Notes under the pieces: model-generated
The model's input: only the letters and a program-made list of their open reading frames with translations
Told to the model about the DNA's origin: nothing
The model's database searches: none
Position numbers and translations under genes: made by a program
Shown here: one piece after another, positions 5,647 to 10,632 of the stretch
Layout of the letters: the number at the start of each line of letters is the position of its first letter
How positions within the stretch are numbered: the stretch's first letter is position 1
DNA from: an uncultured Desulfomicrobium sp.
GTDB lineage: Bacteria; Desulfobacterota; Desulfovibrionia; Desulfovibrionales; Desulfomicrobiaceae
Direction of reading: 5' to 3'
Length of the DNA: 64,000 bases
Assembly: GCA_937872685.1 (NCBI GenBank)
Contig: CALMTS010000437.1
Span: 1-64,000 of the forward strand

Positions 5647-7242
5647 TTATTTTCTGACCGGCGGGGGGGTCGGCCGGCCCTTGGCCTTGGTGAAGACCAG
5701 GCCTCCGTCCTTGCCCTTGCGGTTGAACATGGAGAGCACCTTTTCGGCTTCCTGGAAAGGCAGGGAGACGAAGGCGAAGGTTTCCATGATCTGGATGTCC
5801 CAGACCTTGCGCGACGGAATCTGGCAGTTCTCGTCCAGGAAGGTCAGCAGGCGCTTGGGGGTGAGCCCGTCCTTTCTGCCCTGGGTGACGAAGAGGCGGG
5901 TCTTGCCTTTCTTGTCGACCACGAAAGCGTCCGCGATCTCGCGATAGTTGGAGGCGTCGAGCTCTTCCTGGAACATGTACTGCAACAGGGCGGCCAGGGT
6001 TTCGCGCGGCTTGCTCTGTTCCAGCAGTTCCTGGGCCATGCCCAGGAATTCCAGTTCGGGTTCCGTGGCCACGATGACCCCGAGCTCGGCCCGGATGCGC
6101 TCCTTCTTCATCTGGATGACGTCGCTGACCTTGGGCAGGCGCGCCTTGCGGATGTCCGTCTTGGCCTGCTTGCTGATGAACTGCAGGCGCCGGTACTCCG
6201 AGGGCGTGATGAAGGTGATGGCGATGCCCTGCTTGCCGGCCCGGCCCGTGCGGCCCACGCGGTGCACGTAGGCTTCGGGGTCGTGGGGCAGGTCGAAATT
6301 GATGACGTGGGTCAGGTCGTGCACGTCGATGCCGCGAGCGGCCACGTCCGTGGCCACCAGGATGCGGACCAGGCGCTTCTTGAACTTGACCAGGATTTTT
6401 TCGCGCAGGCTCTGGGACATGTCGCCGTGCAGGGTGTCCGCGTCATAGCCGCGCTCCATGAGGCGCTGGGACACCGCGTCGGCGTCAACCTTGGTGCGGG
6501 TGAAGACCAACCCGTAGAAATCCTCTTCCATGTCGATGATGCGGCACAGCGCCTCGAACTTGTCGGAGGCGGCAACTTCGAAGTAGATTTGGTCGGTCTG
6601 GGTGGCGGTCAGCTGCTCGGACATGGCGCGGATGACCTGGTAGTCGCCCATGTATTTTTTGGCGATGCGCAGGATTTCCGGGGGCATGGTGGCGGAAAAG
6701 AGCATGGTCCGTTTTTCGGTGGCCGTCTGCTCCATGATTTCGAGGACGTCGTCGAGGAAGCCCATGTTCAGCATTTCGTCGGCTTCGTCCAGGATCATGA
6801 AGCGGATGGAGGAGAGGCTGAGGCTGCCCCGGCGCAGGTGATCGAGAACGCGTCCCGGGGTTCCGACGACAATGGACACGCCCTTTCTGAGGTTCCTGAG
6901 CTGGATATCCATGGACTGCCCGCCGTAGATGGGGGCTACGCTGATGGTCCGCCCGCCGCGCAGGGAGTTGATTTCCTCGGCCACCTGGATGGCCAGTTCG
7001 CGGGTGGGCGCCAGCACCAGGGCCTGCACGGTGCGCACGTTCGGGTCCAGGAGTTCCAGCAGGGGCAGGCCGAAGGCCGCGGTCTTGCCGGTGCCCGTCT
7101 GGGCCTGGGCCACGATGTCGGACTCACCGGCCAGGACGGCCGGGATGGTTTTGATCTGGATGGGGGTCGGCTCCTCGAAACCCTTGCGGGAAAGAGCCTG
7201 GATGGTCAGGTCGGAAAGACCCAATTCGGTAAAGGTCGTCAT
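5647..7242 (-). CDS. deaD: DEAD-box ATP-dependent RNA helicase (DeaD/CsdA type)
   Basis: This RNA-unwinding ATPase probably acts in ribosome assembly and mRNA remodelling. The 531-aa protein carries the Q motif (FEEPTPIQ), motif I (AQTGTGKT), Ia (PTRELAIQ), II (DEAD, in VLDEADEMLNMG), III (SAT, in MLFSATMPP) and VI (HRVGRTGRAG). About 200 C-terminal residues follow, ending in a DbpA-like RNA-binding domain (RLFVTQGRKDGLTPKRLLTFL) and a short Pro/Lys tail. The track extends the ORF to 7383, but ATG at 7242 preceded by AAGG fits the conserved start (MTTFTELGL). A promoter about 190 nt upstream and GC-rich hairpins in the leader suggest post-transcriptional control, as is known for some cold-shock helicase genes. 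Confidence 0.95.
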   Translation of the reverse strand: MTTFTELGLSDLTIQALSRKGFEEPTPIQIKTIPAVLAGESDIVAQAQTGTGKTAAFGLPLLELLDPNVRTVQALVLAPTRELAIQVAEEINSLRGGRTISVAPIYGGQSMDIQLRNLRKGVSIVVGTPGRVLDHLRRGSLSLSSIRFMILDEADEMLNMGFLDDVLEIMEQTATEKRTMLFSATMPPEILRIAKKYMGDYQVIRAMSEQLTATQTDQIYFEVAASDKFEALCRIIDMEEDFYGLVFTRTKVDADAVSQRLMERGYDADTLHGDMSQSLREKILVKFKKRLVRILVATDVAARGIDVHDLTHVINFDLPHDPEAYVHRVGRTGRAGKQGIAITFITPSEYRRLQFISKQAKTDIRKARLPKVSDVIQMKKERIRAELGVIVATEPELEFLGMAQELLEQSKPRETLAALLQYMFQEELDASNYREIADAFVVDKKGKTRLFVTQGRKDGLTPKRLLTFLDENCQIPSRKVWDIQIMETFAFVSLPFQEAEKVLSMFNRKGKDGGLVFTKAKGRPTPPPVRK

Positions 7243-7425
7243 GGTAATACCTTGCGGGCGCATGGCCACGCGGTCAAAAGTGCCCGGCTCTGGAACCGGG
7301 CCTGCACCATGAGACCGACTGTCCAAGACGGGGAAAACGCATTTCGCAAACGTGTGGAACCGGATCTGGAAGCTGACGCTCAAGAAGGTCGTGCGGAAAG
7401 GGGGGCTCCCCCCTCGAAGAAATGC
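7243..7425 (-). promoter_or_regulatory. Long structured 5' leader of the DEAD-box helicase gene
   Basis: About 180 nt separate the predicted transcription start from the deaD start codon. On this leader lie a hairpin of six G-C pairs near the 5' end (GGGGGG at 7400-7405 with CCCCCC at 7408-7413) and a second stem (GCCCGG at 7282-7287 with CCGGGC at 7296-7301). No ORF with a convincing Shine-Dalgarno is present. A regulatory role is inference. Confidence 0.5.
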
Positions 7426-7524: not shown

Positions 7525-8499
7525 TCAAAGGGTCAGCGCGATCCCGGCGAGGCTCTCCAGTTCTTCCGACAGGCCCAGGGCCTGGGTCATGGTTTCACCC
7601 AGGCAGACCAGGCCGTGGTTGTTCATGAATACGGCCTGGAAGTCGCGCGCGGCGATTCCAGCCTCCTGGCCGAGTTGCGGGGTGCCCGGCTCCCGGGCCT
7701 CAATGCGCGTGAGCCTGGCCGCGAAGACTCGCCCTTCGAAAAGCGGCAGGTCCAGGAGCGGCCCCTCGCCGCGCAGGGACAGGGCGATAAGTTTTGGGGG
7801 GTGGGTGTGCACAATGGCCCGCGCATCGGGCCGGTTGCGGTAGATTTCGAGGTGGACGGCCAATTCCGACGAGGCCCGTATGGCGGACATGGGCTCGCCG
7901 GTGTGCAGGTCCACCACGGCCAGATCCCGGGGGGTGAGGTGCCCCTTGGCGCTGCCCGATGCCGTGATGACGACGCGGTTGCCCTGGCGCATGCTGATGT
8001 TGCCGTTGAACCCGGCGAAAAGCCCGCGCAGCCAGCCGTCGCGGCCGGCCTCAAGGATGGCGCGGCCGGTGTCCGGGTTGACCAGGGCCGGGAATTCCTC
8101 GTTTCCCGGGGCGGGGCCGTTGTCGGGCTTGATGTCGATGACGGGCGTCCCGTCGATGACCTCCAGGGGGTGTACCTGCAGGCTCAGGCCGTCGCGCCCG
8201 ACGATACGCACCGGGTGCAGGCCGATGGGCGTCGGCCGGTCGGGCGACCGGGTGGAGAAGATGCCGCGCATGGGCAGGGCCCGGTTGCCTTTGGGGTGGC
8301 AGCGCAGGGTGTCCTGGTCGCCCTGGTGCATCCAGGTCAGGACCAGGATACTGTCACCGACCTGCAGATCCGTGGCCGCGGGTTCGAACCGCGGGTCCAG
8401 TTCTATCCTGACTGGCGGCAGGCTTTCCTCCCCGGATTTCGGGCATTGGTCGCGCGTGGCCAGATGGGAGCGAACTGTGCCGATGATGCGTGGATGCAT
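7525..8499 (-). CDS. Fusion protein: TrmO-like tRNA methyltransferase domain plus class II aldolase/adducin domain
   Basis: Residues about 1-135 match the TrmO/YaeB (TsaA-like, UPF0066) family, which methylates N6 of t6A37 in tRNA using SAM. The signature GIFSTRSPDRPTPIGL and DGTPVIDIKPD are clear. Residues about 138-324 form a class II aldolase/adducin domain (L-fuculose-phosphate aldolase-like) with GNISMR, the zinc-ligand motif IVHTHPP and NNHGLVCLG. A single frame runs through both with no stop or frameshift, and the start has a strong GGAGG 5 nt upstream. E. coli TrmO is about 235 aa with a different C-terminal domain. The sugar-phosphate substrate of the aldolase half is unknown, and whether both halves act together is unclear. 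It is transcribed alone with its own terminator. Confidence 0.88.
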   Translation of the reverse strand: MHPRIIGTVRSHLATRDQCPKSGEESLPPVRIELDPRFEPAATDLQVGDSILVLTWMHQGDQDTLRCHPKGNRALPMRGIFSTRSPDRPTPIGLHPVRIVGRDGLSLQVHPLEVIDGTPVIDIKPDNGPAPGNEEFPALVNPDTGRAILEAGRDGWLRGLFAGFNGNISMRQGNRVVITASGSAKGHLTPRDLAVVDLHTGEPMSAIRASSELAVHLEIYRNRPDARAIVHTHPPKLIALSLRGEGPLLDLPLFEGRVFAARLTRIEAREPGTPQLGQEAGIAARDFQAVFMNNHGLVCLGETMTQALGLSEELESLAGIALTL

Positions 8500-8727
8500 G
8501 GGACCTCCATGATGGGTAATGAACCATCAAACCCCACCGGGACCGCGGCGTCAAGGCGGGCGGCTCAGGGAATGCGGATTTCAGGGGCGCACGGTGTTTG
8601 TCGTGTCCGGGGCTTTGATTCCGACGCGTTCTGTGCGAAGAATTGATCCTTGCCGGAACGTTGCGCCTTTCATGACGCCGGCGCGCAGAGACGGCGTTTC
8701 CGGACGGAACATAACCGGAGGATGCGA

Positions 8728-10632
8728 GTGATTCAGCTTTTGTCGATAATCCCTCTGACGATGGACCATTCCTCGCCGAATTGGTCCGTGCACGGGCTTG
8801 TCGATCTGCCCATGTATTTCTGGGACGGCGTCCTTGTCGTTCTGGCCATCCTGAGCTTGGTGCTGTTGTTTCTGTTCTTCCACGGCCGCCGCACGGCGCG
8901 GAATCTGGAGCGGACCAGCTCCCTGCTGACCGAAGCGGCGTCTGAACGCGACGCGGCACTGCGGGTTGTTGAGGAACGCGAGTCTCTGTTCCGGCATCTC
9001 TTCGACCAGGCACAGGTGGGCATCTTCCGCAGCACTTTGGCCGGAGACCGCTTCCTGGTTGCGAACAGGGCGCTTGTGCGGATGTACGGCTACGAGTCCA
9101 TCGACCTGTTTCTGCAGGCTGTCCGTCCATCGGACCTCTACGATTTCCCGGAGCAGCGCGCCGAAGCCGTGCGCATGTTGCAGGAGCACGGACAGATCAC
9201 GAATTTCGAATTGAGTTTCAACCGGGCCGACGGCTCGCGGGGAGCCGTGCTCACCAGCATGTACCTGCGGTCCGCCGAAGGCTGGATCGAGGGTTCGGTG
9301 CTTGATATCACCGAACTGCGCATGGCGCACGCCGAAGTGGAGCGTCAGCACGGCTTTTTGCAGACACTTCTGAACGCCATCCCCAACCCGATTTTCTACA
9401 AGGACGCGGCAGGCGTGTACCGTCTGGTCAACGAGGCCTTTGCGCGCATGCTCGGCAGGCCCGAGAGCGAGCTGGTCGGGAAGAGTGTGCATGATATCGC
9501 GCCGCCGGACCTGGCCCACAAATATGAAGAGATGGACAACGTCCTGCTGCAGGCCCAGGGCCAGTCAACCCAGCGCTACGATTCCCAGGTGAAGTCCGAG
9601 CAGGGGCTGCGCAGCGTTGTCTTCTTCAAGGAGAGCATTCTCGACGCCACAGGAGCCATACGTGGCCTGGTCGGGACCATCTCCGACGTGACCCTCCTGC
9701 GAGAAAAGGAGCGCGAACTGCAGATCGCCACGGCGCGCTACCGGAACATTCTCGACAACGCCGTCGAGGGCATCGCGGAATTTTCTGCCCAGGGGGAATT
9801 CCTCGACGTCAACCCCGCCCTGGCCCGCATGCTCGGGTATATGACTCCATCGGAAGTGCTCGAGGACGCTCGTGAGCAGCCATACAAATTCTATGTCGAC
9901 CCCCCGCAGCGGGAGGCCATGGTCGAACTGGTCCGCGCCCAGGGGCACGTGCAGCGCTTCGAAATCCAGGTCCGGCGCAGGGACGGCGGATCGTCCTGGC
10001 TTTCCCTGAGCCTGAACGGCGTCATGGACGAGGCCGGCGGGCTCATGCGCATGCACGGCCTTGCGCTCGATGTCACCGTTCAGAAGAGGGAGCACGAGGA
10101 GCTGGCGCGCATGGCCTCCACGGACATTCTGACCGGCCTGGCGAACAGGGCCGCCATGCTTGCGCAACTGGACCGGATGCTGATCCAGGCGAAGGCGCGC
10201 GGATTGGTTTTGGGGGTGCTTTTCATGGACCTGGACGGCTTCAAGGACATCAATGACCAATGGGGGCATCAGGCCGGTGATCTTGTGCTGATCCAGGTCG
10301 CGGAACGGATCCGCCTGCGGTTGCGGGGCAGCGACGTGCTGGCGCGCATGGGCGGGGACGAGTTCGCCATCCTGCTCTGGGACCTCGGCGGGGAGCGCAA
10401 TCTGCACACCGTGGCCAAAGCCGTGGTGCGGGATATGCAGGCTCCGTTCGAATGTCTGGGCGTCTTCTGCAACCTGGGGGCAAGCCTCGGGGGGAGCCTT
10501 TTCCCGGAACACGCCTCGGGCAGCTCCGATCTTCTCGCCCTGGCCGACCAGGCCATGTACAGGGTCAAGCGGCAGGGCAAGAACGGGTTTTGCGTGCACG
10601 GGCGTGACCCGGTCCTGTTCGAGACGGATTGA
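8728..10632 (+). CDS. Membrane-anchored diguanylate cyclase with three PAS domains
   Basis: This protein is predicted to make cyclic di-GMP. It has one N-terminal transmembrane helix (VLVVLAILSLVLLFLFF), a short coiled coil, and three PAS/PAC modules at about residues 90-205, 215-325 and 335-455. A C-terminal GGDEF domain of about 160 residues follows, with an intact catalytic motif (RMGGDEFAILL, near residue 542). An RxxD product-inhibition site (RGSD) lies five residues before GGDEF. No EAL domain is present. The track starts the ORF at 8650, but GGAGG at 8717-8721 best fits GTG at 8728 (6 nt spacing); ATG 8722 is too close. It is divergent from the TrmO-aldolase gene. The signal sensed is unknown. 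Confidence 0.9.
   Translation: MIQLLSIIPLTMDHSSPNWSVHGLVDLPMYFWDGVLVVLAILSLVLLFLFFHGRRTARNLERTSSLLTEAASERDAALRVVEERESLFRHLFDQAQVGIFRSTLAGDRFLVANRALVRMYGYESIDLFLQAVRPSDLYDFPEQRAEAVRMLQEHGQITNFELSFNRADGSRGAVLTSMYLRSAEGWIEGSVLDITELRMAHAEVERQHGFLQTLLNAIPNPIFYKDAAGVYRLVNEAFARMLGRPESELVGKSVHDIAPPDLAHKYEEMDNVLLQAQGQSTQRYDSQVKSEQGLRSVVFFKESILDATGAIRGLVGTISDVTLLREKERELQIATARYRNILDNAVEGIAEFSAQGEFLDVNPALARMLGYMTPSEVLEDAREQPYKFYVDPPQREAMVELVRAQGHVQRFEIQVRRRDGGSSWLSLSLNGVMDEAGGLMRMHGLALDVTVQKREHEELARMASTDILTGLANRAAMLAQLDRMLIQAKARGLVLGVLFMDLDGFKDINDQWGHQAGDLVLIQVAERIRLRLRGSDVLARMGGDEFAILLWDLGGERNLHTVAKAVVRDMQAPFECLGVFCNLGASLGGSLFPEHASGSSDLLALADQAMYRVKRQGKNGFCVHGRDPVLFETD

Follow-up and report, generated by a model that had tools for sequence, protein, structure and literature searches.

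The gene at the start of this analysis encodes a TrmO-like domain and a class II aldolase domain in one polypeptide, an architecture that is conserved and old across the Desulfovibrionales, an order of sulfate-reducing bacteria. Both families are known, and their combination, although real and conserved, is apparently undescribed: the open-access papers searched on TrmO with aldolase or with Desulfovibrio did not describe this fusion. The preferred reading, with a rough probability of 0.4, is that of an order-ancestral bifunctional protein that would combine a ketose-1-phosphate aldolase, perhaps involved in salvage of S-adenosylmethionine (AdoMet) by-products, with an AdoMet-binding barrel that probably does not act on t6A37.

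The fusion gene is a single uninterrupted open reading frame of 324 aa with an ATG start and no internal stop (Table 1; the window is the whole 64,000-nt stretch of DNA that was analyzed). The TrmO_N domain (Pfam PF01980) was recognized at residues 29 to 125 (E = 1.2e-20, 74.3 bits against the cut-off of 26.8) and the Aldolase_II domain (PF00596) at residues 147 to 322 (E = 1.7e-42, 145.8 bits against 22.2), with the latter profile covered end to end (positions 2 to 183 of 183). The AlphaFold2 model, based on an alignment of 32 relatives, had a mean pLDDT of 86, with a low-confidence stretch at linker residues 129 to 133. In Foldseek searches, it matched L-fuculose-1-phosphate aldolase (2opi, E = 5e-15), the AdoMet-bound TrmO relative AF0241 (2nv4, E = 9e-12), and the 5-deoxyribulose-1-phosphate aldolase DrdA (6btd). 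The reading frame, Pfam matches, and model, together with the same architecture in dozens of genomes, bear out the proposal of the earlier note that the two domains share one frame. Because these genomes are independent and carry the architecture in a single frame, chance, a frameshift, or an assembly error can be excluded as its source. Judging by the translations of the open reading frames, the window also encodes a DEAD-box helicase on the same strand as the fusion (positions 5647 to 7383) and a divergently transcribed PAS/GGDEF protein (8650 to 10632), neither with an evident pathway link to it.

Table 1. Features of the TrmO-aldolase fusion gene and positions of the overlapping gene pairs in family f44
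Feature	Position	Strand	Basis
Fusion gene, N-terminal TrmO-like domain and C-terminal class II aldolase domain	7525..8499	-	ORF, Pfam, AlphaFold2, Foldseek
Ribosome-binding site GGAGGT, directly upstream of the ATG	8503..8508	-	Sequence
TrmO_N-like AdoMet-binding beta-barrel, residues 4-125	8125..8490	-	Pfam PF01980; Foldseek 2nv4
Ser22, replacing AdoMet-binding Gln25 (E. coli)/Gln22 (AF0241)	8434..8436	-	Alignment; roles from PMC4132733
Thr90, replacing the conserved Asn of RPNPIG	8230..8232	-	Alignment; common to genus members
Glu113, replacing AdoMet-binding Asp125/Asp111; change nearly order-wide	8161..8163	-	Alignment
Variable linker, residues 126-145	8065..8124	-	Identity and pLDDT both at their minimum
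Class II aldolase domain (FucA/AraD superfamily), residues 146-322	7534..8064	-	Pfam PF00596
Glu212 (motif SSE), aligned with FucA catalytic Glu73	7864..7866	-	Invariant in 32 fusions; FucA alignment
His231-Thr-His233, aligned with FucA metal ligands His92/His94	7801..7809	-	32 fusions; FucA alignment
Glu255, invariant in fusions, absent from FucA, present in aq_1979	7735..7737	-	Alignments
His295, aligned with FucA metal ligand His155	7615..7617	-	32 fusions; FucA alignment
Overlapping aldolase II/TrmO genes of family f44	L147:2753-4378, L148:4464-6103, L150:3839-5595		

All 16 members of the genus Desulfomicrobium among 61 related genomes carried the full fusion, as did most of the other genera. 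When 247 Desulfovibrionales genomes were sampled evenly, at least 71 of them, from at least 23 genera and all six sampled families, had the full-length fusion, counted among the matches listed as alignments that exceeded 300 residues within a single open frame. The fusion-bearing members of the Desulfovibrionaceae in this larger sample belong to at least 10 genera, which excludes a loss of the fusion from that family as a whole. The 378 sampled genomes of the phylum outside the Desulfovibrionales did not contain the fusion, with only one half found in any one place, and no plasmid record covered 80% of the fusion query. Given its presence in all six families and its absence from the sampled genomes outside the order, the fusion is ancestral in the Desulfovibrionales, or nearly so. 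Thus, the search across genomes that the earlier note had called for recovered the fusion throughout the order, and the idea that it is unique to this assembly clearly fails.

All three metal-binding His residues and the catalytic Glu of the class II superfamily are present in the aldolase half. Gly166, Asn167, Thr179, Ser210, Glu212, His231, His233, and His295 are invariant in the 32 fusions and align with the residues that in FucA bind phosphate, act as the base, or bind the metal, so that the metal and catalytic site is intact. This is the only Aldolase_II protein encoded in this genome, and the same is true of most of the order. However, none of the named aldolase equivalogs (FucA, MtnB, AraD, OxoTetrPhDc, and ribulose-1-phosphate aldolase) reached its NCBIfam cut-off, the best score being 111 bits against 267; because of that, homology does not fix the substrate.

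E. coli TrmO cannot form m6t6A without Arg92 and Lys136; Gln25 and Asp125 are important, with the Q25A and D125A mutants being strongly impaired, and the C-terminal DPRxxY domain is also required (PMC4132733). In the fusion, the counterparts of the two indispensable residues, Arg84 and Lys124, are kept, and they are invariant in the 32 fusions. The position of Gln25 is occupied by Ser in this fusion and by Tyr or His in sister species among the genus members examined; fusions from most other genera keep this Gln and the Asn of the RPN motif and share the Glu in place of Asp. The earlier note had credited both halves with their key motifs, which holds for all motifs of the aldolase and fails in the TrmO half at Ser22, at Glu113, and at the RPT that replaces RPN. 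Missing catalytic residues in one half, which that note had listed as refuting its proposal, are thus found in part in the TrmO half, and the aldolase half is complete. The TrmO half scored 85.2 bits with the NCBIfam TrmO equivalog TIGR00104, below the cut-off of 93.25, and the DPRxxY domain, found in the E. coli control, was absent from the fusion and from the order's paralogues examined. This genome also encodes a standalone TrmO_N paralogue (G000:C59:81-419) that retains all AdoMet residues but likewise has no DPRxxY. Three further TrmO-like paralogues from the order (L075, L076, and L078) have Cys at the position of the essential Arg92.

These changes do not represent decay. The pN/pS ratio was 0.05 to 0.45 in both halves, which excludes a decaying TrmO half, and it was about as low there as in the aldolase half, so purifying selection acts on the TrmO half and the domain is in use. 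The simplest reading of these sequences is that of a divergent paralogue with a changed role, probably not the textbook tRNA job. A serious rival, even if an unlikely one, is that the TrmO half has remained an m6t6A37 tRNA methyltransferase that tolerates the altered residues, and that the aldolase replaces the missing RNA-binding domain or just rides along. The clear TrmO_N fold in Pfam and Foldseek, the two strictly required residues, the Gln and Asn kept in most genera outside Desulfomicrobium, and the selection acting on both halves are all consistent with retained activity. However, Gln25 and Asp125 are both changed here, the equivalog cut-off is missed, there is no DPRxxY, the same genome has a paralogue with the full set of residues, and several Desulfovibrio-type genomes keep the aldolase without any TrmO_N. 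Accordingly, the designation of the N-terminal half as a tRNA t6A methyltransferase in the earlier note was not supported: the score, the altered pocket, the lack of DPRxxY, and the better-conserved standalone paralogue all speak against it.

The surroundings of the fusion gene are generic, with UvrD, ThiL, and RsmJ as its neighbors; in several genera, UvrD and ThiL precede it. At the same ThiL locus, genomes of one Desulfovibrionaceae genus (g12) encode the aldolase alone, and those of g17 and g8 (L068, L069, L164, and L165, also Desulfovibrionaceae) encode the TrmO half alone. In the aldolase tree, fused and solitary Desulfovibrionales aldolases form one clade with support of 99/99; with the shared locus, this makes the single genes most likely remnants of the fusion. 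Six near-complete g12 genomes (G030, G034, G038, G042, G046, and G057) retain the solitary aldolase and have zero TrmO_N matches. Each half can therefore serve without the other, and the loss of either one in different Desulfovibrionaceae genera argues against obligate coupling.

A second pairing was found in family f44, where the aldolase and TrmO genes overlap by 14 to 26 nt in three genomes, downstream of a CDP-alcohol phosphatidyltransferase (phosphatidylinositol-phosphate-synthase-like) gene; two other genomes (L149 and L151) have only one of the two genes at the same locus. Since both f44 proteins fall outside the fusion clades, in other subclades of both families, and the gene order is reversed relative to the fusion, the TrmO-aldolase link, as judged from the trees, probably arose twice independently. 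These two origins, of which the second is seen in the single family f44, provide moderate support for the idea that the two types of domain are functionally linked. The same f44 cluster encodes a PNP_UDP_1 phosphorylase, which adjoins a menaquinone-type prenyltransferase gene and may belong to the menaquinone-like pathway of that enzyme. A candidate third fusion, in genome G117, was rejected, as that locus holds the aldolase only. The coupled function envisaged in the earlier note is thus suggested by the f44 pair, but not in its obligate form, given the single losses in the Desulfovibrionaceae.

These data also bear on a fortuitous fusion, in which two housekeeping enzymes would have been joined once in the ancestor of the order and kept by inertia, uncoupled. 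This is about as doubtful as retained tRNA methylation. It would account for the separate losses at the ThiL locus in different genera, for the generic neighbors, and for the approximately 22 other aldolases and 12 related standalone TrmO genes that had no partner within 3 to 5 kb. It fits poorly with the f44 pair, whose overlapping genes come from other subclades, and with retention in at least 23 genera over a long divergence.

Less probable still is that the C-terminal half is a methylthioribulose-1-phosphate dehydratase (MtnB-like) or another non-aldol enzyme of the superfamily, whose members include dehydratases, epimerases, and decarboxylases. The invariant Glu255, which lines up with a Glu in aq_1979 and has no counterpart in FucA, keeps the dehydratase reading alive, and the MtnB model did match the aldolase half with 71 bits. 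However, the cut-off for that model is 137 bits, and the FucA_Meth and PRK08333 aldolase models scored higher. From the standpoint of physiology, an oxygen-requiring MtnB pathway is unlikely in strict anaerobes. Such a pathway is fed by the standard form of MtnB (PMC6302742). Finally, a non-catalytic barrel that senses AdoMet and regulates the aldolase by the AdoMet level, as the changes in the pocket alongside the strong conservation of the domain might suggest, is very improbable, given that the pocket is kept in most fused copies outside Desulfomicrobium.

For the bifunctional protein, the preferred reading, the C-terminal half can be expected to act as a metal-dependent class II aldolase that splits a ketose-1-phosphate into dihydroxyacetone phosphate and an aldehyde. 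Its likeliest substrate would be one of the products of the MtnA isomerase, 5-deoxyribulose-1-phosphate or 5-methylthioribulose-1-phosphate, which would make this reaction a step in the salvage of AdoMet by-products. DrdA, also known as Ald2, is the 5-deoxyribulose-1-phosphate aldolase of the DHAP shunt in such salvage (PMC6079011), and a further source likewise places the DHAP shunt there (PMC10986504). MtnA was over the cut-off in 58 of the 61 genomes, including this one (G000:C205). However, it was also present in all 15 of the 15 further genomes of the phylum; being phylum-wide, MtnA does not single out this aldolase, and its presence is weakened as specific support for a salvage role. Neither MtnK nor an MTA/SAH nucleosidase was found over the cut-off in the 61 genomes. 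Strong matches to MTA phosphorylase were confined to three of them (G025, G050, and G060), not including this genome. In these three, all Desulfovibrionaceae, the aldolase half is gone and an unrelated Aldolase_II protein is present. An MTA phosphorylase and a distinct aldolase where the half has been lost are consistent with a role in the salvage of AdoMet by-products, but are not proof of it. The fusion gene is not clustered with mtnA, which lies elsewhere in the genome, and the clustered kinase, isomerase, and aldolase genes of the DHAP shunt are absent from the fusion locus.

The N-terminal half would belong to the TrmO superfamily as an AdoMet-binding barrel of the class VIII type, and its substrate is probably something other than t6A37 of tRNA-Thr; the pocket of the Desulfomicrobium barrels appears to have been remodeled while still under selection. 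The two halves might be linked by AdoMet economy. FucA-type aldolases are tetramers (PMC6079011), and the AdoMet site of AF0241 is built from two subunits (PMC4132733), so two dimers of the barrel might be accommodated in a tetrameric fusion. A broader proposal, rather doubtful at present, is that pairs of TrmO-like barrels and class II aldolases constitute a new AdoMet by-product module, in which the barrel, although its family is annotated throughout as a tRNA methyltransferase, would have a small molecule derived from AdoMet, not tRNA, as its substrate or signal.

Archaea and anaerobes commonly have short TrmO homologues that lack the RNA-binding domain; these carry the tRNA-methyltransferase label with no demonstrated substrate (PMC4132733). 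The conserved and apparently repeated link to a class II aldolase is a first concrete lead to the role of some of them, and Desulfomicrobium is a tractable genus for probing it. Should the aldolase be the missing step after MtnA, it would fill a gap in the disposal of toxic radical-SAM by-products by strict anaerobes.

Among known systems, TrmO/YaeB (TIGR00104, PF01980; E. coli b0195) shares with the fusion the TrmO_N beta-barrel and the equivalents of Arg92 and Lys136, whereas the fusion has replaced Gln25, Asp125, and the Asn of RPN, falls below the equivalog cut-off, and has an aldolase domain instead of DPRxxY. Short archaeal homologues of the AF0241 type (2nv4) have the same barrel, with 36% identity in Foldseek, and also lack DPRxxY, but AF0241 is a standalone protein in which both Gln22 and Asp111 are retained. 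FucA (1fua and 2opi) resembles the aldolase half in its fold, in Glu73, His92, His94, and His155, and in the GN and SSE phosphate-binding motifs; the fusion differs in having no C-terminal tail, in the extra invariant Glu255, and in an identity of only 22 to 28%. DrdA/Ald2 (6btd) belongs to the same superfamily and has the same type of active site, and MtnA is encoded in this genome, although the fusion is not part of a kinase-isomerase-aldolase cluster and MtnK was not found. A precedent for the architecture is Arabidopsis DEP1, in which a phosphatase is joined to an MtnB-type class II domain (PMC6079011): like the fusion, it joins a class II aldolase-fold domain to another enzyme, and it does so in AdoMet by-product salvage, but with a different partner domain, one that acts in the same known pathway.
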